This document shows positions 3,071 to 60,257 of a stretch of 64,000 nt of DNA, in pieces (the stretch's first letter is position 1; each line of letters begins with the position of its first letter). The stretch lies in NCBI GenBank assembly GCA_021234155.1, contig JAJEKV010000003.1, positions 9,362,413 through 9,426,412 of the forward strand, given 5' to 3'. This DNA comes from Isoetes taiwanensis. Its lineage: Eukaryota; Streptophyta; Lycopodiopsida; Isoetales; Isoetaceae. Under the pieces are notes generated by a model that saw only the letters and a list, made by a program, of their open reading frames with translations, was not told where the DNA came from and searched no databases. Both the position numbers and the translations under genes were made by a program.

Positions 3071-3075
3071 GATGA
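3071..3075 (+). repeat. Left target-site duplication GATGA
   Basis: GATGA directly precedes the 5' LTR and is repeated at 16476-16480 directly after the 3' LTR. A 5 bp duplication is standard for Ty3/gypsy integration and fixes both ends of the element. Confidence 0.88.
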
Positions 3076-4761
3076 TGTGACGTTCCAGACCGATACCGCG
3101 GCCCGGGGCGTATACCGCATCTACCTAAATCACGCGCATTACGCGCCACTCGGTGGCGCGGGTAATGCGCTAGCGCAGTAACCAGAGGCGAGTGGCCCTA
3201 GGGGGCAACGTGCCAGAAATATGTGCAACTATTAATGTGCACATTTTCCAATGTACACATTAATGGAGCACACATTTCCAAGTGGACACTTCAATCCAAG
3301 TGGGCCACACCCATAGGTGCAATTAATGTGCACATTTTCCAATGTACACATTAATGTGGGCACACATTTCCATGTGTGCACATTTGGCCACCTAGCCCTT
3401 AAAGGCAAGTGGGCCCATTTCCAATTATCCCACATGCCAAAAGGGGATAATTGGAAACCCTAGCCAACCCCCTTGTCTATATAGGGTAGGAAACCCTAAC
3501 TAGCCCAATTTTCGATTTTAGGGCTTTAGAACTCTGTTTTGGGCGCCTCAACAAAATTAAAACCGCATCGAACTTCTGCACGGGAGAATTGCATCCTTAG
3601 TTTCTCTTGATTGGCGTTTCCAGGGGGGATGGTCGAGCTCTCAGTCGAGGAGGAGCCCCTCAAGGATCGGTATTTGGCCAATTAGATAGTCTAAACCCTA
3701 TTTTAGTCATAGAATCAGTAGGTTTAGCCTATTAAATTGCCCATAGCACCCTCTAGATCTCTAGATAGCGATTCTAACTAAAGAACCTAACTCTATGTTG
3801 TAGATTAGATCTAGTTCTTTAGTTCTCGTGGAAGTATATGGATGATGTATCTCTATGAACTCCTTGTATTGGGAAGGGGGTAGAGACCTAAAAGCTTTGT
3901 AGTTGATGCTCCTAGAGTAGCCTCTCTAGCACACTTGTAGATTCGGCACGTGCACAAGAGCCACAGGGATGTGGGTGGAGGGGCGGAGGACCGGCTAAGA
4001 AGGAGGTTCATGTCTCGACTCTTGAAGCGATCCCTACGGTGTGTAAAGCCTACCAGGGATCATTGTGACTAGGTCTAATGCCTTGCCTTGCCTGGCGTGT
4101 GGGCAAGGCATGGGCTCGACACCCGTGAAGTGGTGTTCACTTTCCGGTGGGTTCGGTCGAATACGGGCAAAGTGGCCCTCTAGTCACCTTGAGTCAGCAT
4201 GTAGATCTCGGAGGGAGTGATCCCTACCGCCCCATCGGGGCGGGAGGATGAACCGGGGAATAGCCCCCTTGGCTACGATCCGTGGGGCTACTGATCAGTC
4301 CGGACACTTTTGAGACCACTGCAAAGTGTGTGTGTGAGGGGCGGATGGAGTGGACAACCCTAAGCCATGTTCATATGCCGGCCAAATCCATTGCCATGAA
4401 TTGCATGCGCAATGAACTCGGAGACCCAAGCCGTCGGTCATCCCTTTGAGTCTCGAGCCTTGGGTAGGATTCCCTATGTGATGTGCCGATCTTTGTCTAT
4501 GCAGATATGTGGAGGACCATCCTTCGTGATGGTCATATGATGTTGATATATGTGCTACGACATGTATGTTTACGCTTCCAGCCTAGGTAGGCCCGAGGGA
4601 GGCGGGGTGCAATGACCCTTCCACTCTTCCCTTTGGAACCCGCCACCGCGGTTGCGGTGTCATGTGGAGGGCCCCGTATTAGCATGGAGCTGGTATGGGG
4701 ATGAACTCCTGTTTGTATACGGTGGGGAGGGCACCGTATGCGAAAGTAGGGGACGTCCGCA
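3076..4761 (+). repeat. 5' LTR
   Basis: Starts TGTGACGTTCC; the matching end in the 3' copy is GGGACGTCACA, so the LTR is bounded by the inverted octamer TGTGACGT/ACGTCACA. In this 5' copy the end reads GACGTCCGCA. A direct repeat of about 97 bp in the U3 part (3227-3370) contains AATGTGCACATT and AATGTACACATT words. A TATA box (CTATATAGG) lies at about 3477-3485, followed by a telobox (AAACCCTAA). Compared with the 3' LTR, many CTG/CAG triplets appear here as CG or CCG/CGG. Confidence 0.88.
3477..3500 (+). promoter_or_regulatory. LTR TATA box with telobox
   Basis: CTATATAGGG is followed within a few bases by AAACCCTAAC. The same arrangement is present in the 3' LTR near 15197. It is the probable Pol II start region for the genomic RNA; the telobox is a known plant promoter and chromatin motif. 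Confidence 0.55.
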
Positions 4762-4762
4762 G

Positions 4763-4774
4763 TGGTATCGAGCT
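4763..4774 (+). other. Primer binding site, tRNA-Met type
   Basis: TGGTATCGAGCT, one base after the LTR end, matches the usual plant initiator tRNA-Met primer site TGGTATCAGAGC except for a missing A inside CAG. That missing base fits the CAG-to-CG pattern seen through the whole element. Confidence 0.8.
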
Positions 4775-4967
4775 ATGTTCTTGGAGACCAAGAGCAAAAG
4801 TTAATCGCCATGTTCCCAGTAGCACTAACTTGATAGGATCCTTAAACCCCGAAAAATGGGAAAATGTTTTCTCATTTTTGTAGTTTATGCTAAGCTAGTA
4901 ACAGTTAAAATGTGCTAGAAATGTAAAAAGACTAAAATTGATGAGCCAACATCCAAAAAGTAGAGTG

Positions 4968-5040
4968 GTCTCACCGCGTCGCCGCCGCCGGAGACAGATT
5001 TCTAGATTCTAGGAATCGGGCTGGGCGCAACGTGTGAGAC
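4968..5040. repeat. Palindrome copy 1 (unit 1)
   Basis: Degenerate left arm (GGTCTCACCGCGTCG) and intact right arm (GGGCGCAACGTGTGAGAC) around a TTTCTAGATTCTAGGAAT core. First of two copies about 200 bp apart upstream of the H3-like gene. Confidence 0.75.
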
Positions 5041-5172
5041 ATTCAGCTTTGTCACCAAAAAAAAAAAAAAAAAGTTGTAAATTACAGTAAAATAACTTGA
5101 TAATTCTTATTTTAAGCTAAGAATCAGTAGAATTAGGATGTTACATGTTAATTTAATAGTGGGCCCCACCAT

Positions 5173-5239
5173 GTCTCACACGTCGCGCCAGGACAGGTTT
5201 CTAGATTCTAGAAATCGGGCTGGGCGCAACGTGTGAGAC
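5173..5239. repeat. Palindrome copy 2 (unit 1)
   Basis: GTCTCACACGTCGCGCC faces GGGCGCAACGTGTGAGAC, 16 of 17 positions pairing, around a core that is itself partly palindromic (TTTCTAGATTCTAGAAA). The arms contain ACGTG/CACGT cores of the kind plant bZIP or bHLH factors bind. It ends about 75 bp before the TATA box of the H3-like gene. Confidence 0.85.
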
Positions 5240-5313
5240 CTCGCTTAATTAGGTGTTTTAGATGCCTTAGACAACCCAAAAAGGTAGTTTAAAAGTTGAC
5301 CTAAATTTGGCCC

Positions 5314-5320
5314 TATAAAT
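5314..5320 (+). promoter_or_regulatory. TATA box of the H3-like gene
   Basis: TATAAAT within CCCTATAAATAGAACC, about 105 bases upstream of the ATG. The 5' leader after it (GGCGATCTTCTGGCGCTCAG) resembles the leader of the second cargo gene, suggesting a duplicated promoter. Confidence 0.65.
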
Positions 5321-5424
5321 AGAACCAGACCCCTCCCATTTTTTTCCTGTTCTTCCCTAGAACTTCGCTCGTGCTGCCAAGGCGATCTTCTGGCGCTCAG
5401 CTCCGATCGACAAACCGTAAGATG

Positions 5425-6716
5425 ATGGCCCGCACAAAGCAAACTGCAAGGAAGCCTAGCCGAAGCGGATCCTCCAGCGCCAGCGGCTCCGGCCTCCTTC
5501 ACAGGATTCTTCGGGAACGCCTTCTCCACGACGGCGAATCTTCGTCGAGCGAGGAAGCAGGATCAGACAGGAGCGACCACACAGAGCTCTTGGAGGACGA
5601 CCGGCCGGATGTCATGAACCAGATCCTCGAAAAGATCGCACAGGAGGTGGGAAGAAGCGGAGAGCAGCAAGAACAACCTCGGGAGGACAACAACCCACGT
5701 GAGGAGGAAGGGAGCGAGTGGGGACCCATCAACAAAGACAGAGCAACCCCTGTGCCGAGATCCACCGCAGGAGGAGCAGTGGAAAGAGGAGGAGAGTCAC
5801 TGAACTCACCCCGGAAGAAGAGGCCGACCTTGCACGCTTCGTCCACAAGTATGAAGCCAAAGAGCGCCGCCAGGAGCAAAGGACAAAGAGTCGGGAAGAC
5901 GACCCGACCACAGCCAGCGGGTCCAAGAAGAGGAAGGCCAAAGCCATAAAGGCAGGCAAGAGGAAGGTGGTGAAGGTCGGGAAGCGAGCTGCGGGTCCCG
6001 TCATCAACGAGCCGTCGGGAGAGGAGACCCCGCCCACTACCGACGACTCGGATGAAGACTACGTGCCGGGCGCAGACGGGGCAAGCTCTTCAAAGCCCCC
6101 GGTTGTAGAGGAAGAGGTCCCGGAGCAGATAGCCCAGGAACAGGAGGAGACCGGACAGCTAGCGAAGCCCCCACCTTTTCCGACGTGGGATAGGGTTAAA
6201 GCCCCGCGACCCCAGCGGGAGGCGTACGTGATAGACCCCCTAAAGGTCTATCAGAAGAGGATCAGGGAACACAACTCCTATATGGAGAAGTGGGAGGCAT
6301 ACAATGCCTACTTCCAGGAGCATCGGGTGAGAACGGTCGAAGGTGGAGTACCCCCTAGGCAGCAGCTGAAGCCACCGCCACCTAGGCCCAAGCCTCCCCG
6401 AGCACCGGGTAAGAAGCGGAGCAAGAAGAAGAAGCTGGAAGATAGGGCCCTCAAGGAGATCCGCCACTTCCAGAAGAGTTACGGACTCTTGATTCCTCGG
6501 GCGCCGTTCCAGCGTTTGGTCCGCGAAGTGATGCAAGAATACAACACAGACATGCGCGTGACCGACGAGATGCTGTTGTGTTTACAGGAGGCGGCCGAAG
6601 CGAAAATTGTGCAGCACTTCGAAGATTCAACGGCTTGCACAGTACACGCAAAGAGGGTCACCCTCATGAGGCAGGATATGCATCTTGTCAGGCACATCAA
6701 GGGAGAACGCCCTTGA
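5425..6716 (+). CDS. Histone H3-like protein with giant linker, one frameshift
   Basis: Starts at the second of two adjacent ATGs (5422, 5425), giving [10 protein letters not shown], identical to the first nine residues of mature histone H3 including K4 and K9; residue 10 is P instead of S. About 330 residues of Ser/Glu-rich, Lys/Arg-rich and Pro-rich linker follow. The last 89 residues (6447-6713) are a full H3 fold: alpha-N ([11 protein letters not shown]), alpha-1 ([14 protein letters not shown]), alpha-2 ([15 protein letters not shown]), then [11 protein letters not shown] and an IKGERP end. Loop 1 has canonical H3 length, but EIRHFQK, LLIP, LQEAAE and VTLMR resemble plant CENH3. The frame changes once, from that of 5425 to that of 6716, between about 5740 and 5800, consistent with one lost base; adding it gives 430 residues (H3 is 135). 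No intron is needed. It lies inside the retrotransposon with its own TATA box. Function unknown; nucleosome incorporation is inference. Confidence 0.88.
6447..6713 (+). other. Histone-fold domain of the H3-like protein
   Basis: Eighty-nine residues align end to end with the H3 core without gaps. Positions important in H3 are kept: the PFQRLVRE helix, TD-R before alpha-2, Cys and His of the C-x-x-H-A-K-R segment at the H3-H3 interface, the Asp of the last helix, and the GER terminus. Changed positions include [10 protein letters not shown] for LARRIRGERA. Retention of the fold implies past selection. Confidence 0.9.
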
Positions 6717-6859
6717 GTTTTGTAAAAAACTGGAAAATTTTGTTAATATAAAGAAAATTTTGTGTAAATAAAGTGTCAAACCCTGTTTAAATAGGTCAAG
6801 ATATCGATCCCTAGCTTTTGTTTTAATTAAATTGGAGTTTTGAGCAAAATTGAGACGAT

Positions 6860-6926
6860 GTCTCACACGTCGCGCCAGGACAGATTTCTAGATTTTAGGA
6901 ATTGGGCTGGGCGCAACGTGTGAGAC
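6860..6926. repeat. Palindrome copy 3 (unit 2)
   Basis: GTCTCACACGTCGCGCC and GGGCGCAACGTGTGAGAC arms, as in copies 2 and 4. It lies about 140 bp after the H3-like stop codon and belongs to the promoter of the second cargo gene. Confidence 0.85.
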
Positions 6927-7058
6927 CATGCCCAAAAATGCCCAAAACAGCTCCAAATCGACCAAGTAAGGGGTCAATTCTGCCTAACTCGATGAGTTTA
7001 GTGGAATTACAGCCTTAGATCACTTAAATTGAGTAAGCCTAGCCCAATTAGAACCCAT

Positions 7059-7125
7059 GTCTCACACGTCGCGCCAGGACAGATTTCGACATTTTCAAAA
7101 TCGGTCTGGGCGCAATGTGTGAGAC
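7059..7125. repeat. Palindrome copy 4 (unit 2)
   Basis: Same arms (right arm GGGCGCAATGTGTGAGAC) with a diverged core (TTTCGACATTTTCAAAA). It is about 200 bp from copy 3, the same spacing as copies 1 and 2, so the pair was duplicated as a unit. Confidence 0.85.
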
Positions 7126-7302
7126 CTCGTACCATTTCTTCACCAAATGATCTCCAAATTGTACAATAGGTTCAGTAGTTGTTCTTAGCATGCTCAAACC
7201 CTAGAAATAGTCTTCAAACTTGCAATTGCATCCCTTAATAGATCAGAATTACCTAATCTCAGTAAAATCCAGGTCATCCAAAAATTAGGGTTTTCCCCTT
7301 TC

Positions 7303-7310
7303 TATAAATA
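7303..7310 (+). promoter_or_regulatory. TATA box of the second cargo gene
   Basis: TATAAATA about 115 bases before the ATG at 7425, the same geometry as in the H3-like gene. The leader (GCTTAGGCGATCTTTCAGCTC) is related to the first gene's leader. Confidence 0.6.
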
Positions 7311-7424
7311 AGTCCCCCATTTCTTATTTGGCACCCTGCAAATTTGCCCTCCTCTGCTTAGGCGATCTTTCAGCTCCCTGAGGCGCTTCTGCATCCGTTT
7401 GATACTCCCTTCTTCGCTAGATCC

Positions 7425-8933
7425 ATGGCCCGCCGACTTGGGCGATGGTACACAAGCGCCCATGCCCATCTGCTTTGCCGGCGGATGTCAACGACATCTT
7501 CCAAGAAATTGACATCAAGCTACGCTTAAATGCAACCCCAAAGATATAGGCGGGTGCTAGCGGAATTTCGTGCTAGGGTAGGACCCTCCCTTGTTCAAGT
7601 CCCCCTTGCATAGGATACTTCGTTCCCCGCCCATCCCTTCAAGTACTTTGGGCGATGTCCCCAACATCGCCAAGTACTTGACTAATAAGGCGCAGAGGTT
7701 GCTCGATTACATGGTCCCGACGACCACAGGGGACCAAGTACTTCTCTTACACCGCAGCCCTAGCCATCTTCTTATCCCAATAGTAGAGAACCCGATGGGG
7801 GCAACCTCTATCCCCCGATGGAGGTAGACCCCATAGCAGTCAGCGAGAAGAGCGGATACGTTGCGATCATCAGAATCGAGGAAGCAAGAGAGGATGAAGA
7901 GGAGTCCGGACGGCGAAGGATACACCTGAGCTCGACTTCGTAAGAAGCGGCAAGCCAAAGCACGAGCCGATCAACTTCGAAAGCGGCGCGGGGGCATCGT
8001 AATTGCTCCCCACTCAGGGCTAGGCATCACAAGCCTAGCCCCTATCATCATCAACGGAGAGGAGTATCTACTCCCACCGGCGACATCCGTAACCTTCCCA
8101 ATGCGAGGGAGAGGGAGCTCAGGTTGGATGAACTGCTCCACCAACTGCGGCAGACCGACATGGACGACTTCATCGTCCGGGGAGCCTCGGACTTTCCGCT
8201 TCAAGTAAGGGAGGCCGACACCTACACAGGGGAAACGACCTCCGATATCCAGGCCTACAAAAAGATCGTGCAAATGATGGACGAGCGGGAGCTGCCAACA
8301 GAGGAGGAGTTCCTCGCCCTCCAAGAACAGATGGGGATCCGTGGGAAGACCACGAGCATCCTAATGCCGAGTCCTTCGACACCACCCCCGCCAAAAGGAG
8401 AAGGAATCGACCTCAGGAGGCTCGACCGCACAATTGAAGACTACAGGGAGCTGACTGAAATTGAGGTCGACGAGTACGCCGGGCGGCACAGAGCTGGAGG
8501 CCAAACAAGCGGAGAAGCTTCGGCGACACACAACGACAGGTCGCTCAGGTACTACTTGCCGCTGCTGATGGATGGGAGAATAGCGGTAATACACCGCAAG
8601 TTCAGCCCCAGAGGTGAAGAAGGAGTGTTCATGCTGATTGCACTCTCGGGCTTCGGCAGGCATGCTCGAATAGCAACAAATGTCGAATATGCTGTCCTGG
8701 TCAAGAGGGCAATGGCACTCGACCTCTTTGACTTCGCCATACCCCACTGACGTCAGGCGAGATTGGCGGTGACTGCAGCCCTCACATCCGACCGCAGAGT
8801 AGAAGACTTGGTGAGAGCCTTGCAGGGAGGCTCGTCAGCAAGCATCATCAGGAACTTGGGTCACTCGGTAGGGACGGCCCAAGTTAAGAAGTTCCTTGAA
8901 GACAACCCGTCTTACCGGCGATTTCAAGACTAG
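7425..8933 (+). pseudogene. Second cargo gene, unrecognised, frame-broken
   Basis: The ATG context ATGGCCCGC is shared with the H3-like gene (both start M-A-R). After that the reading frame changes several times: a protein-like stretch at 7591-7827, then a long clear frame 8124-8750 that continues past a single TGA to the TAG at 8931-8933. The long part is acidic in its first half (repeated E/D-rich, DDF, MMDERELPTEEEF) and more basic and hydrophobic in its second (YYLPLLMDGRIAVIHRKF, then GFGRHARIATNVEYAVLVKR). I recognise no domain; it is not a histone fold. The shared promoter layout suggests it arose by duplication of the cargo unit or was acquired with it. The breaks may be real decay or the CHG artefact discussed in the findings. 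Confidence 0.6.
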
Positions 8934-8981
8934 TTAGACTCTTGATCCCGGAGACTTTTTGTACTAAAATATTATATGATA

Positions 8982-8989
8982 TATAAATA
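8982..8989 (+). promoter_or_regulatory. Possible third internal TATA box, before gag
   Basis: TATAAATA in a very AT-rich stretch 50 bases after the second cargo gene and about 110 bases before the gag frame. A splice acceptor-like TTGTGTATGCAG also lies at about 9102-9113. How gag is expressed 4.3 kb downstream of the LTR is unclear; both an internal promoter and splicing are possible. Confidence 0.35.
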
Positions 8990-9101
8990 CAATTCTGTTG
9001 CACTTTAAATGCTTTGTTGATGTATTTTTGCCCCACAATTATACCAACAAACATAAACAATGCAAGAGAACAAATGAAACTAACCAAATAGCCATGAATT
9101 G

Positions 9102-11224
9102 CTTGTGTATGCAGCTAGAAGCCTAAACGCAGGGGAACGACAACTGCGAGACCTGATAGAAGAGCAGACCCCGCCCAGACCACCCCCGGCAAGGAACCTA
9201 TTTGAAGATATGGAACCCATGACCCCAGAGGAGGAGATATCCCAGATGAGGACGGACCTGGAGCAGATAAAGGCAGGAATGGGTCCGCGCAAGCAGGAAT
9301 GGGTTCGGTGGGCAACGCTCAGTTGCCGCAAGCATCAGCTCGGAGAGCAGGAAGGGACAAGAAGAGGAGCAAGAGAAGGAGATCCTCCAGTCCGGAATCT
9401 TCCGACTCAAGTTCAGACTCGGACTCCGACTCAGAGGAAGAGGAAGAGCAGGCTCGGGACCGAACTGATGGAAGGCAAGGGAACACTGAAGATGGAAGGC
9501 AGAGGAACACCCCAGATGGACGACAAAGAGATACCAGGGCCTCTGACTACCAGAAGAAGGTAGATTCCGCACTGGGCAATGTATGGAAGGCCCGGAAACT
9601 GGAACAGTTCTCAGGGGAGAACAGGTCAGGATTGGAAGCAGAGGCATGGCTGGACGAAATGAGTGAGTACGGCAATGCTTATGGCATGAAAGACAAAGAC
9701 AAAGGCAGAGTTGCAACAGCCAACTTGAAGGGAGCCGCTTGGATTTGGTGGAAGGGTTATGCAAAGGCACATGGCTTAAGCAGGGATGCTTGTAAGTTCA
9801 GAAAGTTTGCTAAAGCCTTCAAGCGCCACTACGTCCCGAGGGAACATAAGTCCAGCATGATGCAGCAGTTTTATAGGTTGCAGCAAGGCAACAAATCAGT
9901 CCAGAAATATACAGAGGAATTCATGAGGCTAAGGCTGTATGTGCCGATATTGGGAGAGAAGCATGCAGTAGAAAGCTATATTGAGGGACTGAATGAGGAG
10001 ATCCGCAAGCTTGTGAGGGCAATAAACCCTAGGACAGTATCAGAAGCGGAATCCAAGGCTATAAGCTTGCAGGGGTCGGGACCTCAGAATAGCGGGCAGA
10101 GGCAGCAGTATTTCCAGGATAAAGGCAAGGCGACAGGAAGCCATAGCCCTAGGGCAGCCAGTCCAGGTCCAGCTAGAGCCCCATATGGTGGGAACCAGGG
10201 GAAACAGCAGGAGAAGAAGCAGGTGTCCTTCAAGGACAAGCAGGAGGGGTCAAACTACTCCAAAGCAGTGCGATCCTTTTTGCAGGCGATGCCCAAGGAA
10301 AAGAGGCAGGAGTGCATAGAAAAGCAGCTGTGCTTCAGGTGTTTCCAGCCAGGCCATAGGACAGCAAACTGCCCCTACGTCATGAGTGCAGCTCTAGCGG
10401 AGTTGGGAGATTGGGACGCTCTGTCTGACGACGACGGCGAAGAAGCCCGCGACTACATCCAGGGTGAGTGCCACATCTTTGCCGCAATAGATACAGAGCA
10501 AGCAGAGAGCCAGTATAAAGTAATTTCCACAGTAGGGAAGGCCAAGGCCAAGTCCTTCATAGTCTTGATAGACTCGGGAAGTAGCCATAACTTTGCATCC
10601 CCCAGAATGGTTCAAATGTTGAAGTTGAAGCCGCTAAAGTCAAAGCCAAGACCCGTTGTCTTAGCAAGTGGTGCAGTAAGGCAGACGGCGGGCAAGAGAA
10701 TTAACTTCGACATCGACTTGCCAGGGATTAATATCCAGATGGGGGCAGAAGTAATGGGCATTGGCAAGTATGACTTGATCATAGGAATGGAGTACCTTGG
10801 GCCAGCAGGGGCCATTATCGACTGTGGAAAGCGGAAGGTGACCTTCCCAACGCCTGACGGCAAGATCATCGAAATCACAGGTAAAGAAGTTGTTCCCATC
10901 ATGCAGTGCATGTCTTCTAAGAGGCTGTTCAAGTGCATCAAGAGCGAGCAGGTGGCGTACATCTTCAAGCTTGAGATTAGTGAGCCAGAATCGGAAGGAA
11001 GCAAAGAAGATAAGGTGCTCAGCAAGTTGCCGAAGCAAGTAGCTAAGCTGATCACGGAGTTCCATGATCTCTTTCCAGATGAGATCAAGCAGCTCCCTCC
11101 ATATAGGGGAGTCGAGTGCGAGATTGCACTCGAACCGGGAACAAAGCCAACAAGCAAGGCTCCATATAGAATGACAACGCAGGAGTTGTCGGAGCTAACT
11201 AAAAGCGATTCGGGAGCTGCTTGA
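9102..11224 (+). CDS. gag: Gag and protease, one frameshift
   Basis: The first frame (from about 9102, first in-frame ATG near 9210) is acidic and proline-rich. Near 9299 reading passes to the frame of the 641-residue ORF, a one-base-loss type shift. In order: a Ser/Asp/Glu-rich segment; a retrotransposon gag domain ([32 protein letters not shown]); a CCHC zinc knuckle [15 protein letters not shown] at about 10333-10377; an aspartic protease with active site [10 protein letters not shown] at about 10566-10595 and its IIGMEYLG flap region; then the start of reverse transcriptase ([11 protein letters not shown]). Gag coats the RNA and forms the particle; the protease matures the polyprotein. 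Gag and pol share one frame here. The frame ends at 11224 by a local break. Confidence 0.88.
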
Positions 11225-12690
11225 CCTAGGTTTCATTAGACCTAGTGTTTCGCCATTTGGAGCGCCCATTCTCTTCGTTAAGAAGAAGGATGGCAGTTTA
11301 AGGATGTGCATAGACTATAGGCAGTTGAACAAGCACACCATTAAGAACAAGTATGCGCGCTCCCGGATCAGATGACTTGATGGATCAGCTCCAAAGGCGC
11401 AAAGATCTTCTCAAAATCGACTTAAGGTCGAGGTTATCATCAGATCAGGATAAAGGAAGAAGATATCCATAAGACCGCCTTGTAACGCGGTATGGGCACT
11501 ATGAGTTCAGAATGCCTTTTCGGCTTATCGAATGCCCCATAACGTTCATGAGGCTCATGAACGACATCTTCGAGGAGTTTTAGACACCTTTGTGATTGTT
11601 TTCTTTGATGACATTTTGGTGTATAGCAGATCCCTTGAAGAGCACGTACAACACTTGAGAAGAGGCTTTGGAGAAGTTGAAGAGGCACCGGTTATGCGCC
11701 AAGTTGTCGGGTGCCACCGCAGCAGAGAAGGTGGAGTATCTAGGTCATGTGATCTCGCGAAGGCATCTCGCCGGATCTTGCAAAGATTGAAGCCGTCATC
11801 CGGTGGCGGGCGAAGAATGTGCATGAAGTCGGAAGTTTCCTCGGCCTAGCAGCGGTACTACAGAAGTTCGTGGAAGAACTTTGCCAAGATAGCAGCCCCG
11901 CTAACGGACTTTGACGAGGGCGAGAAGTGAAAGATTGGGTAGAGCATTGGCACAAGAAAGCCCAAGCGGGGGTTTGAATTGTTGAAGGAAGCTTTAACAA
12001 CAGCCCCGATCTTAACCCTTGGGACGGGAGAAAGATAAGCTTGTAGCGGCGGGGTATTAAAGTAAGATAGCTACAGAGCGGTGCTTATGCAAGAAGAGCG
12101 GGTGGTAGCGTATGATTCCAGGAAGATGAACGACGCCGAAACGCGCTACCCCACGCACGATCAGGAATTGCTTGCGGTTGTCAGGGCATTAGGAATTTGG
12201 AGGCACTACCTTTTGGGAAGGAAGTTCCAATTGGATACAGACCACCAGAGCCTCCAATATGTATTCACGCAACCACACCTCAACCCGAGGCAGAGAAGGT
12301 GGATGGAGTTCCTTGAAGAGTACGACTTTGATATAGTCTACAAGCCAGGGAAGCTTAATGTGGTAGTGGATGCGCTTTCAAGGCATCCCCTGACAACTAG
12401 AGTGCATTGCAATGCAATTTCGACGATCTCCAGCAACTTTGGTAAGATGATTGAAGAGTCCTTGCCAACGGACGTGGATTTCAAGGAAGTATGGGCAAGT
12501 CTCTCTAGGGAGGCTAGAACAGATAAGGAGCGGGAAGCCTTTAAACATTTTAAGAAGGAAGGCAACCTGTTATACCATAAGAACAAGTTGTGCGTACCCG
12601 AATCATCAGGTGTAAGGAAATTGATCCTCCACGACACGCACAACAGCCCAATAGCTGGCCATGCGGGATTCATGAAAACATATTTTTAAA
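11155..12690 (+). pseudogene. pol: Reverse transcriptase and RNase H, multiple frame breaks
   Basis: RT motifs run on after the gag-protease frame but in changing frames: [20 protein letters not shown] and [19 protein letters not shown] (about 11219-11345), and the catalytic FFDDILVYS box (about 11601-11627). At least four shifts occur between 11200 and 12080. RNase H is readable at 12081-12400 (YDSRKMNDAETRYPTHDQEL, DTDHQSLQYVF, VDALSRHPL). Integrase N-terminal zinc-binding residues begin near 12630 ([14 protein letters not shown]). Protein similarity stays high through the breaks, so the decay is recent or partly a sequencing artefact. Confidence 0.8.
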
Positions 12691-13943
12691 GTCTTGGCAG
12701 CAGCTATTATTGGCCGGGGAATGAAGAAGCGGTAGCTCGCTACATCAAGGAATGCCAGCTATGTCGGCCAGACAAAGGCGGAGTAAGCCGAATTCGGGGG
12801 CATTGGAGCCATTAGCGGTGCCAAACGCTAAGTGGGAGGTAATCAGCATGGATTTCATCACAGGACTCCCAAGAACGGCAAGAGGGAAGGATGCCTTGAT
12901 GGTAGTGGTCGACAAGTTGTCTAAGATGGCACATTTTGTGCCTTGGGACCACAGATCTGACTATGGATACAAACAAAGCTCTTCACCAAAGAGATCTTCG
13001 TGCTTCATGGCATGCCAAGGGAGATCATCTCCCGAGGGATCCGAAGTTCATGGCGCCTTTTGGCAAGACCTCTTTTGCGACAATCCGCACGAAGCTATCC
13101 ATGAGCATGGCATATCATCCTCAGACGGATGGCCAGACGAAGCGGACCAACAGAATTTTAGAGGACATGCTACGAAACTATGTCTGGAATAAGCAAAGTA
13201 TGTGGGAAGAATTTATTCACTTGGTGGAGTTTGCATACAATAGCACCAAGCAAGAATCATCCCAAATGTCGCCGTTTATGATCAATTACGGCTATCGATT
13301 GCCTAACTCGGACACTTGGCACAACCAGGTGTCAAAGGTGGAAGTTTCGCAGCAGATGTTGGCCGATATGCAGCAGCTTGTGGAAGAAGTTCGAGGTTAT
13401 CTGCTAGCAGCAAGAAGTCGTCAGAAGAGCATCGCCGACAAGCATCGAACAGTAAGAGAGTTCAAAGTTGGAGATGATGTTTGGCTCAAGATCAAGGTGA
13501 AGCAGGCAAAGCTCAGGATCGGCAATTGCAAGAAGCTTGCTCCAAGGTGGGCTGGACCTTTCAGAATAGTCAAGAGAGTAGGCAATCAATCCTACAAGCT
13601 AGACTTGCCAGCACACCTAAAGATTCATAACGTCTTCCACGTGAGTTTGTTGAAGAAGCATACTCCAAATCCAGACGAAGTCTTGGATTCTCCAACATTG
13701 TTGGAAATGACGGAGGAGCAGCTGGAAATAGTTCCAGAATTGATTCTTGATAAAGCTTTCAAGAAAACGAGGAGATCAGAATTCCTCCAGTATTTGGTCA
13801 AGTGGAAACACTTACCAGTGGAAGACGCGACGTGGGTACTTAAGAAAGATTTAGTAAAGCAGTATCCACAGTTTATGGAGCAATGGGACGGCAAGGTCAT
13901 CTCCGAAGAAATCGGCTCAGGCATGTCGATTTGTGTAGGTTAA
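12640..13943 (+). CDS. int: Integrase with C-terminal chromodomain
   Basis: The CQLC half of the HHCC zinc site is near 12750. The catalytic core starts in one frame (12830-12935: [28 protein letters not shown]) and passes to the frame of 12936-13943, with [13 protein letters not shown] at about 13110-13150. A GPY/F-like segment ([20 protein letters not shown]) precedes the chromodomain at about 13733-13890: ILDKAF, then [20 protein letters not shown] and QYPQFMEQW. Chromodomains of related integrases are known to read methylated H3 tails and steer insertion; the Y and W of YLVKW and the W of ATWV are kept. In this element the domain sits beside a self-encoded H3 tail. Confidence 0.88.
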
Positions 13944-14789
13944 TTCTTGTGTAATTAAGATTAATCTACGCATGTAACCTATCCTTAGTATGGGTCGCAT
14001 GCGTGTTACCGATGATGGGACCACTACGGTGATCTCTAGGGCGTGGTGTAATGTCAATGTAGGCATGACCGCGTTTCCGCTTGGGCGAGTGGAAGGTAGA
14101 TTAGAAAGTCTACTTACGTCCACTAAGTAGGCGACCTCGAGAGAAAGGAGGTCATGGAGGAATGCATTGATAGGGGAAAGCACCTTTAGCCCCATATATG
14201 CTTTGATAGGAGGAATCTATCCTTCCGCCCGCGAGAAGGATATCCTCCATCTTTGGGCAACTAGAGGTGTAGGCATGAGCGGCATATAGGCATATAGGTA
14301 TTTGTCTCCGGCCATAATGGAAGATTCACCCTCTTCCTACGTAGGAGATTAGCCATGCATCCATGTAGATAGGTGGGGTGGTCACCATATAACCAAAATT
14401 TTATTAATAATTAAATGGTACTAACGTAGTGTCGACCTGCAGGCCAATAGAGCGCTCCGGAGGGCAAGGAGGTCGAGCTACGAAGACTTGCAACACAAAT
14501 TTTGTTGGAATGTGTTGCAAGGAATCAAGAGTACCTCGGACGTTAATTTTAAATTTTGATAAACTTAATTGTCATGTTAAGTGAACTATGGAGTAATCTG
14601 TTTAGTAATGTTATGAATTGATAAGTTATTTCATAATATAATGATGTGATAATGTCATAAAAGTATTACCTTAAGGTAATCTTAATAAATGTGTAGGAAT
14701 TATAGTAGTTATCGTATGTATTAGGTTGATTGCAGGTTACGATGACCCCAAGGTGGGGAGACCCACGATGCTGCGGACAGCATCATTTC
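13944..14789 (+). other. 3' untranslated part of the retrotransposon
   Basis: No reading frame of note. A duplicated word CAAGGTGGGGAGA occurs near 14749 and again as the polypurine tract, suggesting a second priming site or a local duplication. Confidence 0.5.
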
Positions 14790-14802
14790 AAGGTGGGGAG
14801 AA
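14790..14802 (+). other. Polypurine tract
   Basis: AAGGTGGGGAGAA directly abuts the TGTGACG start of the 3' LTR, the position from which plus-strand DNA synthesis is primed. Confidence 0.85.
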
Positions 14803-16475
14803 TGTGACGTTCCAGCATAGTATACGGCCCCAGGACATATACCGTCTTTGCCCTCGTCAGCGTACCGCCACTCCGGTGGCGTATGCGCTAGCGTGTAGCC
14901 AGCGAAAGTGGCCCTAGGGGCAACGATGCGTGAAAATATGTGCAACTATTAATGTGCACATTTTCCAATGTACACATTAATGGAGCACACATTTCCAAGT
15001 GGACACTTCAATCCAAGTGGGCCACACCCATAGGTGCAATTAATGTGCACATTTTCCAATGTACACATTAACGTGGGCACACATTTCCATGTGTGCACAT
15101 TTGGCCACCTAGCCCTTAAAGGCAAGTGGGCCCATTTCCAATTATCCCACATGCCAAAAGGGGATAATTGAAAACCCTAGCCAACGCCCTTGTCTATATA
15201 GGGTAGGAAACCCTAACTAGCCCAATTTTCGATTTTAGGGCTTTAGAACTCTGTTTTGGCTACCTCAACAGCCAAAACCGCATCCCAGACTTCTGCTGGG
15301 GGAGAATTGCATCCTTAGTTTCTCTTGATTCGGCGTTTTAAACGGGATGGTCGAGCTTCAGGTCGGGAGGAGCCCCTCAAGGATGGGGTATTTGGCCAAT
15401 TAGATAGTCTAAACCCTATTTTAGTCATAGAATCAGTGGGTTTAGCCTATTAAATTGCCCATAGCGACCCTCTAGATCTCTAGATAGCGATTCTAACTAA
15501 AGAACCTAACTCTATGTTGTAGATTAGATCTAGTTCTTTAGTTCTACGTGGAAGTATATGGATGATGTATCTCTATGAACTCCTTGTATTGGGAAGGGGG
15601 TAGAGACCTAAAGCTTTGTAGTTGATGCTCCTAGAGTAGCCTCTCTAGCTGCTTGTAGATTCGCCCTGTGTGCACAAGAGCCACACAGGGATGTGGGTGG
15701 AGGGGCCAGACTGGCTAAGAAGGAGGTTCATGTCCTAACTCTTGAACGATCCCTCTGCTGTGTAAAGCCTACCAGGGATCATTGTGACTAGGTCTAATGC
15801 CTTGCCACTGCGTGTGGGCAAGGCATGGGCTCGACACCCGTGAAGTGGTGTTCACTTTCCAGTGGGTTCAGTCGAATACGGGCAGTGGCCCTCTAGTCAC
15901 CTTGAGTCAGCATGTAGATCTCTGGAGGGAGTGATCCCTACCTGCCCCATCGGAACTGGGAGGATGAACCCAGGAATAGCCCCCTTGGCTACGCATCCGG
16001 CGGGCTACAGTCAGGTCCCGACACTTTTCAGACCACTCTGCAAAGTGTGCACAGGAGGGGCGGATGGAGTGGACAACCCTAAGCCATGTTCATATGCCAG
16101 CCAAATCCATTGCCATGAATTCTGTCTGCAATGAACTCTGGAGACCCAAGCCGTCAGTCATCCCTTTGAGTCTGAGCCTTGGGTAGGATTCCTTATGTGA
16201 TGTGCTGATCTTTGTCTATGCAGATATGTGGAGGACCATCCTTCGTGATGGTCATATGATGTTGATATATGTGCTACTGACATGTATGTTTACGCTTCCG
16301 CAGCTAGGTAGGCCCTGAGGGAGACGGGGTGCAATGACCCTTCCACTCTTCCCACTGGAACCCGTCACGGTTGCAGTGTCATGTGGAGGGCCCTGTATTA
16401 GCATGGAGCTGGTATGGGGGATGAACTCCTGTTTGTATACGGTGAGGGCACCGTATGCGAGTAGGGGACGTCACA
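14803..16475 (+). repeat. 3' LTR
   Basis: TGTGACGTTCC to GGGGACGTCACA, colinear with the 5' LTR throughout, including the duplicated 97 bp U3 block. Single-base length differences from the 5' LTR cluster at CTG/CAG sites: TCTCTGGAG here against TCTCGGAG, CTACTGACATG against CTACGACATG, CCCTGAGG against CCCGAGG. Confidence 0.88.
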
Positions 16476-16480
16476 GATGA
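16476..16480 (+). repeat. Right target-site duplication GATGA
   Basis: Matches 3071-3075. Removing the element leaves GGTTCGATGAAATTCCC as the empty site. Confidence 0.88.
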
Positions 16481-41863: not shown

Positions 41864-41930
41864 CTAGTAATGGTGCCCAGCGTTGCTGGGCATAAGTTGG
41901 GAGCCTGTAAATGCTTTGGGATGCAGTGAG
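41864..41930 (-). mobile_element. Helitron 3' terminus, copy 2
   Basis: CTAG at 41864-41867 (minus-strand end) and hairpin 41875-41891, identical to copies 1 and 3, again with an A/T host junction. The 1.65 kb pyrimidine tract starts within 70 bases and is presumably internal to the element. Confidence 0.75.
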
Positions 41931-41931
41931 A

Positions 41932-43592
41932 AAAGCCCTATCCCTTTCCTTTTCCCTTTTGCTCTATCACGCATTTCATTTTTTCTTATTTTCTCTACTT
42001 TTTCTTTTCTTTTCCTTTTTTTCTCGTCTTTCTCACATGTTTCCTTGTTTTCCCATCCCTTTCCTTCCCCCTTCCCTGTTCCCGATAACCTTTTTCCCTT
42101 CCCTTTTGCTCCTTTCTCCACCTTTTCCCTCTTCTCTTTTTTCTTTGCCCTTTTCCCTTCCCCTTTCTTTTTTTTTTACGCCTTCTCTTTTCCCCACCCT
42201 TTTTCCATGTCTTCCTTTTTTCTCAACCTTTTACTCTTTCGCCCTTTTCCATGCCTATTTTCCCTTCTCTTTTCCTCCTTTTTTTGTGTGCCCTTTTCCC
42301 TTTCATTTTTCTTTTCTCCCTCCCATTTTCCATGCCCTTTTTATCTTCCCTTTTTTCCATCTCCTCACCCTTTCCCTCTTTCCCTTTTCCATGTTCCCTT
42401 TTTCTCTTCCCCTTTTCCATTTTTATCATTTCCTTTTTCCCGTGCCTCTCTCTGTTTCCCCCCTTTTCCATTCTTTTTTCTTTTCTATTTCCCTTTTCCC
42501 ATGCCCTTTTTCCCACCATTTTCTTCTTTCTATTTTTCCCGTGCTTCCTTTTCCTCCTTTTCCCACCCTTTCCCTCTTCCCGTGCAATTTTCCCTTCTTT
42601 CAACCCTTCTTTTTTCTTTTCTCTTTTCCTTTCCTCATGTCATTTTTCGCTTTCCCTCCCCTCCATCACTCCCCTGCTTCCCTTTCCCTTTCCCTTTTTT
42701 CCCGTTTTCTTTTCTTGATGGATTTTTTTCTTTCCGTTTTCCTCCTTTGCCGATCCTTTTCCTGTGCACTTTTTCCCTTCCTTTGCTTTTCCTTTTCCCT
42801 TTTTCCATCCCTTTTGCACATTTGTTTTATTCTCTTATTTCCTATACCCATTTTCCTCTTTTCCCCACCCTTTCTCTCTTGCCCCTTTTCTTTTCCCTTT
42901 TTTCTTTTTTCCCTTTCTTCACCATTTTCCTCTTCCCTTTTCTCTCATGCCCTTCCCCCCTTCCCTTTTCTCGTTTCCCTCTTTCTTTTTCCTTGTGACC
43001 TTTATCTAGGTTCCCTTTCCCCCTTTTCCCTTTCCTTTTTCTTTCTTCTCACCTTCCCTTTTTCTATGCCCCTTTTCTTTTCCCCTCTCCCCATCCGTCC
43101 CTTCCCTTTTCCTCATTTTTCCAACCTTTCACTGTTCCCCTTTTCTTGATGCGTTTTTTCCCTTCCCTTTCCCTCTCTTTTTTTTTTTTTCCCTTTTCCT
43201 ATGCCATTTGTCCCTTCCTTTTTCCTCTTTTCTCAACGCTTCTCTTTTTTCCCCTTTTCCCATGCTCCTTCCTTTTCCCATGCTTTTTTCCTCCTCCCTT
43301 TTTCCATGCTTTTTTTCTCCTTCATTTTCTCCCTTTTTCAACCTTTTCCTCTTTCCTTTTTTTTTTTTCATGTCCTTTCCGTTTACCTTTTCCACTCTAT
43401 CTCTTACTCCTTCCCTCGTGCCCTTTTCCCAGGTTCCCTTTCCCTTTTTCGTTTTCCATGCCTTTTTCTCTTCTCCTATCCCCACCCTTTTCCCTTTTCC
43501 TTTTACCCTTTTCCCCATGCCTTTTTGCCCTTCACATTCTCTCTTTCCACTTCCCTTTTCCTTTTCTCCCTTTTCATTTACCCTTTTCCCTT
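41932..43592 (+). repeat. Pyrimidine tract 1 (about 1.66 kb)
   Basis: Almost purely C/T on the plus strand, built from degenerate units such as TTTTCCCATGCCCTTTTTCCC and TTTCC(C/T)CACCCTTTCCCTCTT. ATGCC and CACCC are the only regular breaks. Frames of up to 412 codons on this strand and Lys/Arg/Glu-rich frames on the other exist only because stop codons need A or G on the plus strand. Such tracts can form triplex (H-DNA). Confidence 0.85.
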
Positions 43593-44030
43593 AAGAGATC
43601 GAAGCATGACCAATCACAGTGTTGGTAAGTCGTACAATAAATCTAGGCCTTCAGATGCATCCAGATGATCTCGGCCATTCAAATTAGGGCTCGGTGCACT
43701 ACTTACGGTATAACATTATAATATAAGATTCTACAACCACCACAGGTTGGGCACAAAAAAGGGGGAAAAAGGAAAAATGAAGGAAAGTAGGGGGTGGGTG
43801 GGGGTGGGGGTGTGGAACAAAGAACAGAATTAAAAAAAGAAAGGAAACGTGTAAGGAAAATGAGGAAAAGAAAAAGACAAAGGGTAAAAGTGGGATAGAG
43901 CAAATGACAAAATGAAAAAAAAATGTCGTTTGTAACGATGGTGTACTTTTGGGTTATTTTCTTAGTGCTACAGTGTATTATTTACAGTTTCTCAGCTTGT
44001 GTCCAACGAGGTTGGCCACAGTTCCTAGTT
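43593..44030. other. Spacer with G-quadruplex motif
   Basis: No gene. 43790-43810 is GGGGGTGGGTGGGGGTGGGGG, a textbook four-run G-quadruplex motif inside a purine-rich stretch. Confidence 0.6.
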
Positions 44031-51751: not shown

Positions 51752-54406
51752 ATGGAGTTCCCGGGTTCTTCATATGAATTTGGAGGACGAATTTGCAGGT
51801 ATGTTTTTATTTTGTCTCTGAGTTCTACAGTTACTTTTGTAAGAAGATGACAACAGAGATCAGAATTGTGTTGCCTGAAGAATATGCAGTTACTTGGAAC
51901 AAGAAACGTGGAGGTTTCAAGGTTCGAGTGGATGCAGCTTTGTTGAGGTCAAGAGGAGCTAAGAATGCAGATCTGTGGACACGTGGTGAGATTTATCCCA
52001 GGGATCCAATTACCGGTAATCTCCCAGACTTTAATTCTGTTACTAGTTTGGTCAAGTTCGTCTGTGAAGGAAAAAATGGCTTGTTGGGATACTGTGAGAA
52101 CATGAAGAAATATTTGTTGCATAATTGGAGCTTATAGAGGTGAAATTGAGCTAATGAAATGTGAAAGAAAGCAATCATCAATTGATAAGGGTTCATTGGT
52201 AAAAGAATTAGAATGCATGAAGAAAACTTTAGTTCAAATGCAAAGTGAAGATACGTTAAAAAATTTTGTCATCAAGCAAGCAGAGAAGGAGAGATGTCAT
52301 GTCGAGAATGCTTTGATGCGGGCAGAGTCCTCGGTGAAAATTCTAGAAGCTCGTTTGAAGAGATTTAAGAAGACTGCAATGGGAATGCGTGAGCGGAAAA
52401 AAACATTGAAACCCATACATACATTAGCACCAAAAGGGGGAGCAGCAAGAAGGAGAGTTTATGCAATTAATCAAGCTTTGAACACCAAAAAGAAGAAAGG
52501 AGTTGTGAGGAAAAATATGGGAAATTTTCTTCTTAACATGGCTTCACGAGATGAGATTCTTGCTTTATTAAATGAGCCATGCAACATAGCATTGAAGAGA
52601 GATGTGCTAGACATGGTAATAAAGGAAATATATTAAAAAATGGATGCAAATGAAGTTCAAACCACTTGTGACACTATCGGATGCTTGAGGCAAGGATATA
52701 GAAGTCTATTCAAACCCTTTCAAGCCGCATTGAAATCTTTAGGCACTAAGAAGGTTATTATCCCGCGTCCATACACAGTTGAGAACATCAAAAGAGAAAG
52801 GAACATGAAAGTTGAGGAGGTTCTTGGAGGTATGCATTCTATTCAATGTGGAGTCTCATGCATTTCAAATAGAGATAGCGCTGAATGTGATGTGATCGGT
52901 CTTAATGAGAAAAATAACATTTGGTTTGATTTAGAGACTATTTTAAAACTTATGGTCGTATTTTACAATTTGCAATCTCATGAGGTGGAACAATTGGATG
53001 TATGCATTAAGCTCGATGAGATGGAGCTTACGAGTAAGGCAAAGTATGAAAGAGTCTCTTTAGTTCTTATGAATTATGCCATGGGACCAGAATATGAAGC
53101 ACAACTACGTTTGCCCAAGAAAAAGAGAGATCCTGAGTTTTTTTCAGTTCAATCTGAGGAACATACCTGGTGGCTTGGTATGTTCCAAGTTCAGAAGGAG
53201 AATTTTTCAATTTTGAAGTGGGTGTTTGATCAGACGGATATCCCAAGGATTATTAGTATGTTTGAAGCTGGTGAATTATTGCATGTGGATGGTATAGGAT
53301 CATTTAAAGTGAGATTTCATTTGGCTTCAGATTTAAAAACAGAGAAAGCTATGTATAATGTGGCTAATACAGGAGCACAAACTTGTAGTAATTGTATTTA
53401 TTGTATGTATAAATTAAAAGAGAAAAAAGGGAGAAAGTGTTCTAGTACCATGTCTTGCAAGCAGGATGCACCTCCAGATAGGCACTTGAAGGATAAAAAC
53501 TTTGAACCGATTTTGCCAATTCCACTACAAAGAGTTCACTTTTGTACGTTACATGCAATGGTTAGAATAGTGGAGAAAATGATACATCATAGTTGTATGT
53601 TTGTATGGAATTTTAAAAGCGAGAAGGATAGAAAAGAAGGGATTGCAAGGATAGAGAAAGTGCTATCAGAAGCTGGGCTTCATGGAGGTAATGTAAAGCT
53701 TGAAAAGGACTTGAAGAAATCAGTAAAAAGTTCTGTACCATGCAAGGTGTCATTGGGAGGTGATAAGGCCAGACGCTTCTTGGAAAATGTAGATTCAAAG
53801 AGAAAGGGGACATTTGACTTTGGTAAGAGGCTAGTTGAGGCTGAGAGGGATAGGACAGATAGAGCGAATGCTACAATAAGGAAACTAAATGCATGGAATG
53901 CATTTTCCAACCTAAATGTGTTATTGCAAAAACACACATTCACCAATGCTGATAAGGTGAAGTTCAAAGACCTCGTCAACAAGTTTACTGATGCTTACAT
54001 CAAGGCATGGGGCGAAAGTGAGGTCAGTCACTACGTTCATATTTTGTATGCTCATGGACCTTGGTTTGCAAAGGAATATGGTAGTCTTGCTGTATGGAAT
54101 ACTCAAGGCATGGAAAAGTCTCATAAACAGGCCAAACTAGCTTTCCATCGCGCCACACAGAGAGGAGGATCGTCACTTGCATCAAAGCCACTCAATCAGC
54201 TTGGAACCTGGTTCTATAGAAGGCTGCTCGCAAGGCATGATAGAAATGTCAAAAGAAGGACAAGTCCACAACTAGATAAAGCACTGAGAGATGCTATCCT
54301 CAAGCGCAAAAGGGAACTATGGGAAAAGTCATCTGCTAAGGAAACACAAAGGCAGTGGAGAAGCAAGCGGGTGAGAATAGGAAAAAAATACGTCCTCGGA
54401 TCTTGA
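51752..54406 (+). pseudogene. Transposase-like gene, three frame segments
   Basis: A start at 51752 (MEFPGSSYEFGGR) joins the next frame in phase if a GT-AG intron of only 32 bp (51799-51830) is removed. Segment 1 (to 52137) has TTEIRIVLPEEYAVTWNKKR; a one-base shift near 52110 leads to segment 2 (52154-52636), a Lys-rich coiled coil; one TAA (52634-52636) separates it from segment 3 (52640-54406, 588 residues). Segment 3 contains a beta-hairpin with a candidate catalytic Asp (VCIKLDEMELTSKAKYERV), a CSNCIYC zinc pair, FCTLHAMVRIVEKM, and VSHYVHILYAHGPWFAKEYG then WNTQGMEKSHK. This Asp-hairpin, LH, GS-x3-W-x3-G-x-E layout is seen in some eukaryotic RNase H-fold transposase-like families and distantly recalls Transib/RAG1, but catalytic residues are not confirmed. 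Confidence 0.5.
51799..51830 (+). other. Possible 32 bp intron
   Basis: GCAG|GTATGTTTTT to GAGTTCTACAG|TTAC. Removing it joins the ATG at 51752 in phase to the downstream frame; leaving it in gives a stop within 20 codons. Very short for a plant intron. Confidence 0.4.
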
Positions 54407-59067: not shown

Positions 59068-60236
59068 TACCTGTGCAATAGATAAATAAATTAGTTAACT
59101 AGAAGGCCACTTAATAAGTAACATCATTGGGCCAAAAATACTTACAATTTCTCTTCAGTGAGTGGCTGCCAACTAATGTAACTTGAGAGGAGCAAATGTT
59201 CCATCCTTATTCTGTTTCACATCAAAATAACAAAAATAAGAATGTTTATATAGCTAACATACATATATTATGCACAACATATATGGCAGTAGCCCAATGT
59301 GCAACACCAAAGCCTGTAAGTACTATGCAAAAGTATTAATATACTAAAGATAAGGAATAAAGACTACAAAAAAAAACTGGAGTTTTGTGCCCTTTTTGGG
59401 TAGGTAAAATTTCAAGGCTTTCAAGGTACAATTTCATAATTTCAAGGCTTGCATTCCCGTTAGCTATTGTCAAAGAGATATCTGTTCTATATTAACTGAA
59501 TTTCCTGTCTGTTCTATGCAAATTGAATGTCCTGCAATTGCCTGAAGCAAATGTAAGAGTATGAAAACATCCATGAATAAAATGAAAAGCTTCATGTATG
59601 AACTTGAGAATATAAGACTTGATAATGCAGGCCATTGCTTCCTCATCCAGAATGTCAAAATAGATAGCATTAAACACCATATTCGATTTTGACCTTTTCA
59701 ATTGCTGCAGATGCGGTATACTTCAACCACTTGAAGCTGTTTTATAACCAGATTATTTACACAGCATTTTCAATTTATAACTATTGTTCGAAATCGCAAA
59801 TGATGAAAACAAGCATCGAATACCTGCTAAAAAATAAGAACAACATGGCCTTGCTGAAACTTTGTGCTTCAAGATGTGAACAACAACAACTAAGAGAAAT
59901 TTTGAGGAGACCAACGAACAACCAAAATTTGTATTCGACAACCCTATTCGGCTCACAACAGAATCATGGATTTGTTTGACACCACCATCACGAAAAATTT
60001 CTCTCAATACATTTCGCGCTCTCTAACCTTAGATTCAGGCGAAAATCTCTTGCATTAATTTCTATTATGCTTTAATGCGGTGTTAGGTTACCATAAATGT
60101 ATTCATAAATGTATTGGAAATTGGCTCATAAATTGCCACGTAATACTGGTATAAAACTATTAGCACCTCGCATGCTATTGGTTGATCTTAAATGCCCACG
60201 TGGAATTTCAAGGATTTATTATTGGGATATTTCGAG
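59068..60236. other. 5' side of the BAH-like gene and subterminal DNA
   Basis: Apart from the possible untranslated exon near 59150-59220 there is nothing coding. Contains the promoter of the minus-strand gene by position. Confidence 0.3.
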
Positions 60237-60257
60237 ATCCCAAAAAAACTCTAATGC
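60237..60257 (-). repeat. Right terminal inverted repeat
   Basis: ATCCC, seven A, CTCTAATGC; perfect inverse of 51326-51346. Confidence 0.8.

Follow-up and report, generated by a model that had tools for sequence, protein, structure and literature searches.

In Isoetes taiwanensis, chromoviruses of two families carry, between the primer site and gag, a gene for a protein with a C-terminal histone H3 fold behind an N-terminal part, and in both families this fold has changed very little between copies while silent sites diverged. Selection across so many copies suggests that the element H3 may build or disguise the chromatin of these parasites. The finding starts from one window, a stretch of 64,000 nucleotides (JAJEKV010000003.1, 9362413-9426412, forward strand) in a genome of 1,658,258,908 bases in 1110 contigs, in which a first-pass annotation made from the letters alone had described an H3-like gene carried by an LTR retrotransposon. 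Positions below are those of the window, and its retrotransposon family is called M1.

3071..3075, no strand: target-site duplication GATGA, left
3076..16475, plus strand: complete Ty3/gypsy chromovirus of family M1, 13,400 bp (LTR pair, 5-bp duplications, gag-pro, RNase H, integrase, chromodomain)
3076..4761, plus: 5' LTR, 90.7% identical to the 3' LTR with gaps counted
4763..4773, plus: primer-binding-site-like TGGTATCGAGC, read from the sequence
4969..5041, plus: 73-nt repeat, copy 1, upstream of the H3-like gene, 70% identical to copy 2
5168..5240, plus: 73-nt imperfect palindrome, copy 2, a direct repeat; 5173-5239 matches its own reverse complement at 81%
5314..5321, plus: TATAAATA box (TATA) of the H3-like gene, read from the sequence, in 26 of 30 copies
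5425..5457, plus: H3 tail ARTKQTARK of the H3-like gene, read from the translation
5425..5949, plus: first part of the H3-like gene, tail and acidic linker, in the frame of 5425, which closes at 5949
5718..6716, plus: second part in another frame, with linker, long helix (from the model), basic stretch, H3 fold and stop TGA
6447..6713, plus: histone H3 fold (PF00125; PDB H3 chains by sequence; Foldseek on a moderate-confidence model)
6855..6927, plus: 73-nt repeat, copy 3, upstream of unit 2, 93% identical to copy 2
7054..7126, plus: 73-nt repeat, copy 4, 88% identical to copy 2
7303..7310, plus: TATAAATA box of unit 2, read from the sequence
7425..8933, plus: unit 2, a second extra gene, decayed in the window (ORF 8124-8750; homologous frames in other copies)
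9299..11224, plus: gag and protease (PF03732, PF19259, PF08284)
12081..12689, plus: RNase H and integrase start (PF17917, E 1.3e-27; PF17921 weak, E 0.0075, below its cut-off)
12936..13943, plus: integrase C-terminal part and chromodomain (PF24626; PF00385, E 8.3e-10)
14803..16475, plus: 3' LTR
16476..16480, no strand: target-site duplication GATGA, right

The complete 13.4 kb Ty3/gypsy element claimed at first pass is there, with its LTR pair, GATGA on both sides and coding domains. Gag, protease, RNase H and integrase follow in Gypsy order with the chromodomain after the integrase, a polypurine stretch is also present, and the primer site TGGTATCGAGC is presumably of the initiator Met tRNA type. 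The K2P distance between the LTRs is 0.088 (5' LTR taken to 4759), which at an assumed rate of 7e-9 per site and year dates the insertion to about 6 million years ago. Its gag-pro has no match at 1e-10 among the 7998 protein database candidates scored. The H3-like gene lies upstream of gag-pro, RNase H, integrase and chromodomain, between the primer-site-like stretch (4763..4773) and gag (9299..11224), where the annotation had placed it.

The exact H3 tail and the TATA box were likewise confirmed, at 5425 and 5314. The single ORF of about 430 residues described with them does not exist in the window, where the frame is broken, and does exist elsewhere: six of 30 fetched copies have an uninterrupted frame of 417-439 codons from MARTK to stop, and the window therefore holds a damaged copy of a real gene. 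Here 5425-6716 measures 1292 nt, which three does not divide; a stop closes the tail frame at 5949, the frame of the fold is open from 5718, and codon-position GC shifts phase at about 5700-5760, inside the acidic linker. A short intron is unnecessary to account for the frame change because other copies are uninterrupted; none of a few GT-AG pairs tried by eye has a fitting length. The longest stop-free run has 337 codons; in 1000 first-order Markov simulations the 99th percentile is 230 and the maximum 326. As an argument against chance, the homology weighs more.

The fold in the window matches Pfam PF00125 at E 2.7e-27 and solved H3 chains at E of about 2e-30, over chain positions 8 to 135 of 136 and free of gaps, as had been claimed for the 3' end of the gene. 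A model of 6171-6713 reaches a mean pLDDT of 71 and a pTM of 0.35, and Foldseek against the PDB returns H3 chains first (52-55% identity, E down to 4e-5), with low TM-scores of 0.3 by query and about 0.5 by target. By eye, the residues that we take to form the H3-H3' interface and the inner DNA contacts look kept (FQRLVR, DMR, CTVHAKR), and the RYRPGT stretch and R63 are presumably gone. The tail matches H3 residues 1-9, followed by a proline at position 10. It is not joined directly to the fold, which a basic stretch precedes; the six intact genes encode 417-439 residues, as against about 135 in H3.

Comparison with other copies, proposed in the first-pass annotation, shows the H3-like gene to be present in them. 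Its 32-nt start occurs at 159 places in the genome (up to 3 mismatches) and the reversed control at 0. In a genome-wide search with the fold, 150 of 9294 first-look candidates were scored; these are 90-100% identical over 97-100 of 100 residues, 4 have an internal stop, and 43 lie in open frames of at least 400 codons. Thirty M1 copies, the window among them, were picked by protein similarity and fetched. The tail is exact in 17 of them (window included), and at least 24 of its 33 nt are identical in 21. Copy L035 has LTRs that match the window's, a target duplication ATAAT on both sides, the H3-like gene at the same place, and the second extra gene, gag and integrase; no match was found for RNase H in it, and part of pol seems to be deleted.

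Selection between copies proved to be strong. Within the six intact M1 genes, pN/pS is 0 in the tail (11 codons), 0.33 in the acidic linker, 0.23 in the middle part, 0.10 in the FPTWDRV block and 0.028 in the fold, and 0.187 over the whole gene. For the fold in all 30 M1 copies, mean pS is 0.285 and mean pN 0.0073, a ratio of 0.026, to be read with the fact that these copies, like those behind the ratio of 0.039 for the second family below, were picked by protein similarity, which lowers pN. The graded constraint in parts of the gene outside the search query, the starts picked by DNA, and the size of synonymous relative to LTR divergence speak against this sampling as the cause of the low pN. 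Among 100 of the 159 starts listed, 97 still encode the H3 tail; 213 of the differences are synonymous and 3 nonsynonymous, against an expectation of 20:61 for random single changes. The differences are common by descent rather than independent (24 distinct starts, 3 nonsynonymous). Synonymous divergence among the six genes is 0.36, 4-7 times the LTR divergence of three insertions (0.052, 0.055 and 0.088), so the frame has been kept over rounds of transposition. A sample picked instead by 3' UTR DNA has an uninterrupted fold in 5 of 30 copies, window included, and an apparent pN/pS of 0.63 over 275 of 435 pairs, inflated by frame-shifted copies aligned in one frame; we read this sample as the decay of old copies after insertion.

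A second family, M2, emerged from a search with Quercus CENH3 (P0174), in which 150 of 7980 candidates were scored, with open frames of at least 400 codons at 53 of these. Ten stretches were fetched: one canonical H3 (L074), taken as the host's and used as the host H3 reference, eight M2 pieces and one third variant of the H3 fusion (L078), whose N part is longer. Of the M2 pieces, the four long ones run from MAITK to a near-canonical H3 fold, and the other four, which are short, contain the fold; the M2 tail matches H3 in AxTK only. The M2 start has 146 matches in the genome and its reversed control 0. Copy L072 carries its own LTRs, the first 12 bases of which, TGTGACGTTCCA, are those of the window's element; the primer site TGGTATCAGAGC follows right after the 5' LTR, the H3 fusion starts 773 nt on, and the flanks CCTCA/CCTCC are alike in 4 of 5 bases. 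Against the window's element, L072 is 37-52% identical in gag-pro pieces, 69% in RNase H and 46% in integrase, and it holds a distant relative of unit 2 (23%, E 1e-6). The searched pieces of L072 contain neither the TATA word nor the palindrome words of M1.

Over eight M2 copies the fold has a pS of 0.363, a pN of 0.014 and a ratio of 0.039. M2 and L078 are 27-28% identical in their N parts (E 4e-27 to 1e-32) and have 90% of the fold in common; the fold is therefore what is kept. Identity of the fold to host H3 is 87% for M2, 88% for L078 and 55% for M1. As a control, all 69 candidates for H4 were scored and gave 43 matches, with a longest open frame of 176 codons; 16 H4 genes are 99-100% identical, in open frames of 107-146 codons. 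Of the two histones searched, H3 shows a flood of long-frame copies and H4 does not.

The broken window copy, and the like state of most copies in the 3' UTR sample, would be expected if a piece of host H3 had been caught by a single element and had no role. This account is already contradicted by the 159 and 146 matching starts of M1 and M2, by a pN/pS of 0.026-0.039 in the fold, and by the presence of an H3 fusion ahead of gag in both families, between which the best gag-pro pieces show 50-52% identity, and we give it next to no credence. No orthologue outside an element was recognised among the 30 of 150 and 10 of 150 scored matches that were fetched, LTRs being checked in the window, L035 and L072. 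A core histone as a regular gene of an LTR retrotransposon is thus supported beyond the window copy, by other copies and by selection.

A tree places M2 and L078 together next to plant H3 (99/98) and M1 on a long branch, weakly with the sole plant CENH3 sampled (84/28). M1 has the H3 fold in common with plant H3 and CENH3, and differs from them in its 417-439 residues and long linker; its tail is ARTKQTARK. With Quercus CENH3 it has IRHFQK, an IPxAPF motif and one 11-residue stretch in common, for which a CENH3 origin was considered; loop 1 is longer in CENH3, whereas that of M1 has H3 length (a gap stands opposite the extra CENH3 residue in alignment A1). With its weak tree placement, M1 may or may not have such an origin. 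How close H3-like protein matches are was judged from one alignment of 12. The N parts of M1 and M2 show no similarity (hhalign probability 0.1%, from few and similar sequences). There may have been one capture or two; the place before a unit 2 relative and gag, common to both families, favours a single capture, and the tree does not. In a search for linker relatives in other species, none of the best 120 of 1694 matches covers more than 55% of the query, and the four inspected were all repeats of H3. The unusual H3-like proteins P0121-P0126, from ENA contigs, share a motif around LYISRRKERTKLGHRILDWTP at the N-terminus, where it replaces most of the H3 tail.

Plants silence transposons by H3K9 and H3K27 methylation. 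The best explanation as a whole, which we put a little short of an even chance, is that the element H3 enters nucleosomes and dilutes silencing marks on the H3 tail. The element H3 would join H4 in nucleosomes, these would be without the normal H3 tail, and H3K9 and H3K27 methylation would be diluted on new and old copies of the element; a role of the N-terminal part may be to tether the nucleosome or to bring in factors, and unit 2, with the same promoter motif in M1, may be the partner of the H3-like protein. The first step is the firmest: because 90% of the fold is kept and the N part is down to 28% identity, the fold probably still pairs with host H4 and H3, and the protein probably enters nucleosomes. 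For M1, whose fold is 55% identical to host H3 and presumably without the RYRPGT stretch and R63, entry is less sure. By eye, M2 is without the K9 or K27 context, and M1 has residues 1-9, proline 10 and a linker of about 300 residues. A fold that is kept while the rest is swapped between families is as expected if the N part is in an arms race and the fold must fit host H4. Anti-silencing as the purpose of the element H3 is a tentative reading of these sequences, and M1 conserves tail residues 1-9, K4 and K9 among them, which a pure loss of marks would not need. It is conceivable to a similar degree that a retrotransposon lineage builds element-specific nucleosomes, with an H3 of its own and a private N part, and thereby writes the chromatin state of its copies, or erases it.

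Because M1 keeps residues 1-9 followed by proline 10, an alternative to consider is that readers, perhaps including the element's own chromodomain, are drawn to the tail or titrated by it. The main rival to nucleosome entry with dilution of marks is that the element H3 marks its own copies for integration, its tail or N part in chromatin being recognised by the chromodomain integrase so that new copies land beside old ones. In PMC12786077, plant LTR elements are said to have group I chromodomains that bind H3K9me and group II ones without the cage aromatics. The strong selection on residues 1-9 of M1 and the presence of PF00385 on the integrase are in keeping with such recognition. However, the window's chromodomain by eye resembles the group II type, presumably without two of the three HP1 cage aromatics, the chromodomain region of L072 is damaged, and M2 has no H3 tail beyond MAxTK, and we regard self-marking as rather unlikely.

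Should the M1 tail instead act in solution, ARTKQTARK on its long linker would titrate readers or writers of H3K4 and H3K9, and the fold would serve only dimerisation or chaperone binding. The tail protein sequence is indeed invariant in the six intact genes (pN/pS 0 over 11 codons, against 0.33 in the linker), but M2 lacks the tail and keeps the fold, which is strongly constrained in M1 and M2 alike; since M2 keeps only MAxTK, tail mimicry is not a function common to both families, and we think it improbable. Slightly less probable still is a role in packaging or nuclear import: by way of histone chaperones and importins, the H3 fold would condense the element's cDNA or integration complex, or escort it. 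This role would suit a gene that belongs to the element, stands before gag in the three copies whose layout was checked, and has a basic stretch ahead of the M1 fold. Yet the M1 gene has its own TATA box (26 of 30) outside the gag-pol frame, so that its product need not enter particles, and we know of no case in which a lone histone fold without H4 condenses DNA.

We found no retroelement encoding a core histone in our searches of the open-access literature; the first-pass annotation likewise knew of no described plant LTR retrotransposon with such a gene. The word "histone" does not occur in the main text of a review on extra ORFs in plant LTR elements (PMC7264820), nor "retrotransposon" or "retrovir" in the main text of a review on viral histones (PMC9145170). 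The nearest parallel among retroelements is an orchid Ty3/gypsy lineage that carries an AlkB-type m6A demethylase as an extra ORF, from a survey of 121 angiosperm genomes with 15 unusual domains in LTR elements, of which those named in the excerpt, not all 15, do not include a histone (PMC9289625). There, likewise, a captured host domain has been fixed as an extra gene in a large plant Gypsy lineage; the orchid gene, however, is an RNA demethylase, whereas in Isoetes a core histone is fused to new N parts, in two families, upstream of gag. Core histones in viral genomes, in contrast, are carried by DNA viruses, and the excerpted review names a bracovirus H4, giant-virus histones and a single viral H3, with 68 added N-terminal residues in one viral H3 (PMC9145170); the bracovirus H4 is reported, in the part of PMC5423620 available, to act by its tail after joining host nucleosomes. 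The role proposed here for the element H3, a transposon protein set against epigenetic silencing, has a precedent in the VANDAL elements. These are DNA transposons. Their VANC proteins are described, in excerpts of PMC5735166 and PMC10398659, as anti-silencing and sequence-specific, and no histone fold appears in those descriptions. A Gypsy chassis with extra ORFs is therefore known, and a core histone in a retroelement is new as far as the open-access literature shows.

Should the protein enter nucleosomes, transposons would be able to change the material that bears the silencing marks, an axis absent from familiar models of host-transposon conflict. The many H3 variants, in insertions that can be dated, form a natural set that shows how far H3 can change, and whether a parasite can own its chromatin is directly testable in a sequenced plant.

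The second extra gene, unit 2, has about 500 codons when pieced together from separate copies, in which it starts with MATADF; its core has a pN/pS of 0.049 in 14 of 30 copies, picked for an open core. For it, Pfam gives nothing above its cut-off, the PDB nothing better than E 1.5, and a single-sequence fold was useless (mean pLDDT 32). A likeness to H2A was seen by eye and dropped for want of Pfam or PDB support. The 73-nt imperfect palindromes come in pairs 199 nt apart, one pair before each extra gene, and look like shared promoter elements; of 30 copies of the H3-like gene, 23 have the palindrome arm upstream and 27 downstream.

Elsewhere in the window, 28511-30000 matches itself at many offsets with about 74-97% identity and is probably a tandem satellite array. 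A 588-codon ORF at 52640-54406 adjoins a 160-codon ORF at 52154 and is possibly a DNA transposon gene, which is a guess. Very long Phe-rich frames run over simple-sequence tract at 41883-43668 and 60109-62366, the latter continuing into a frame that reads by eye like a copia reverse transcriptase.
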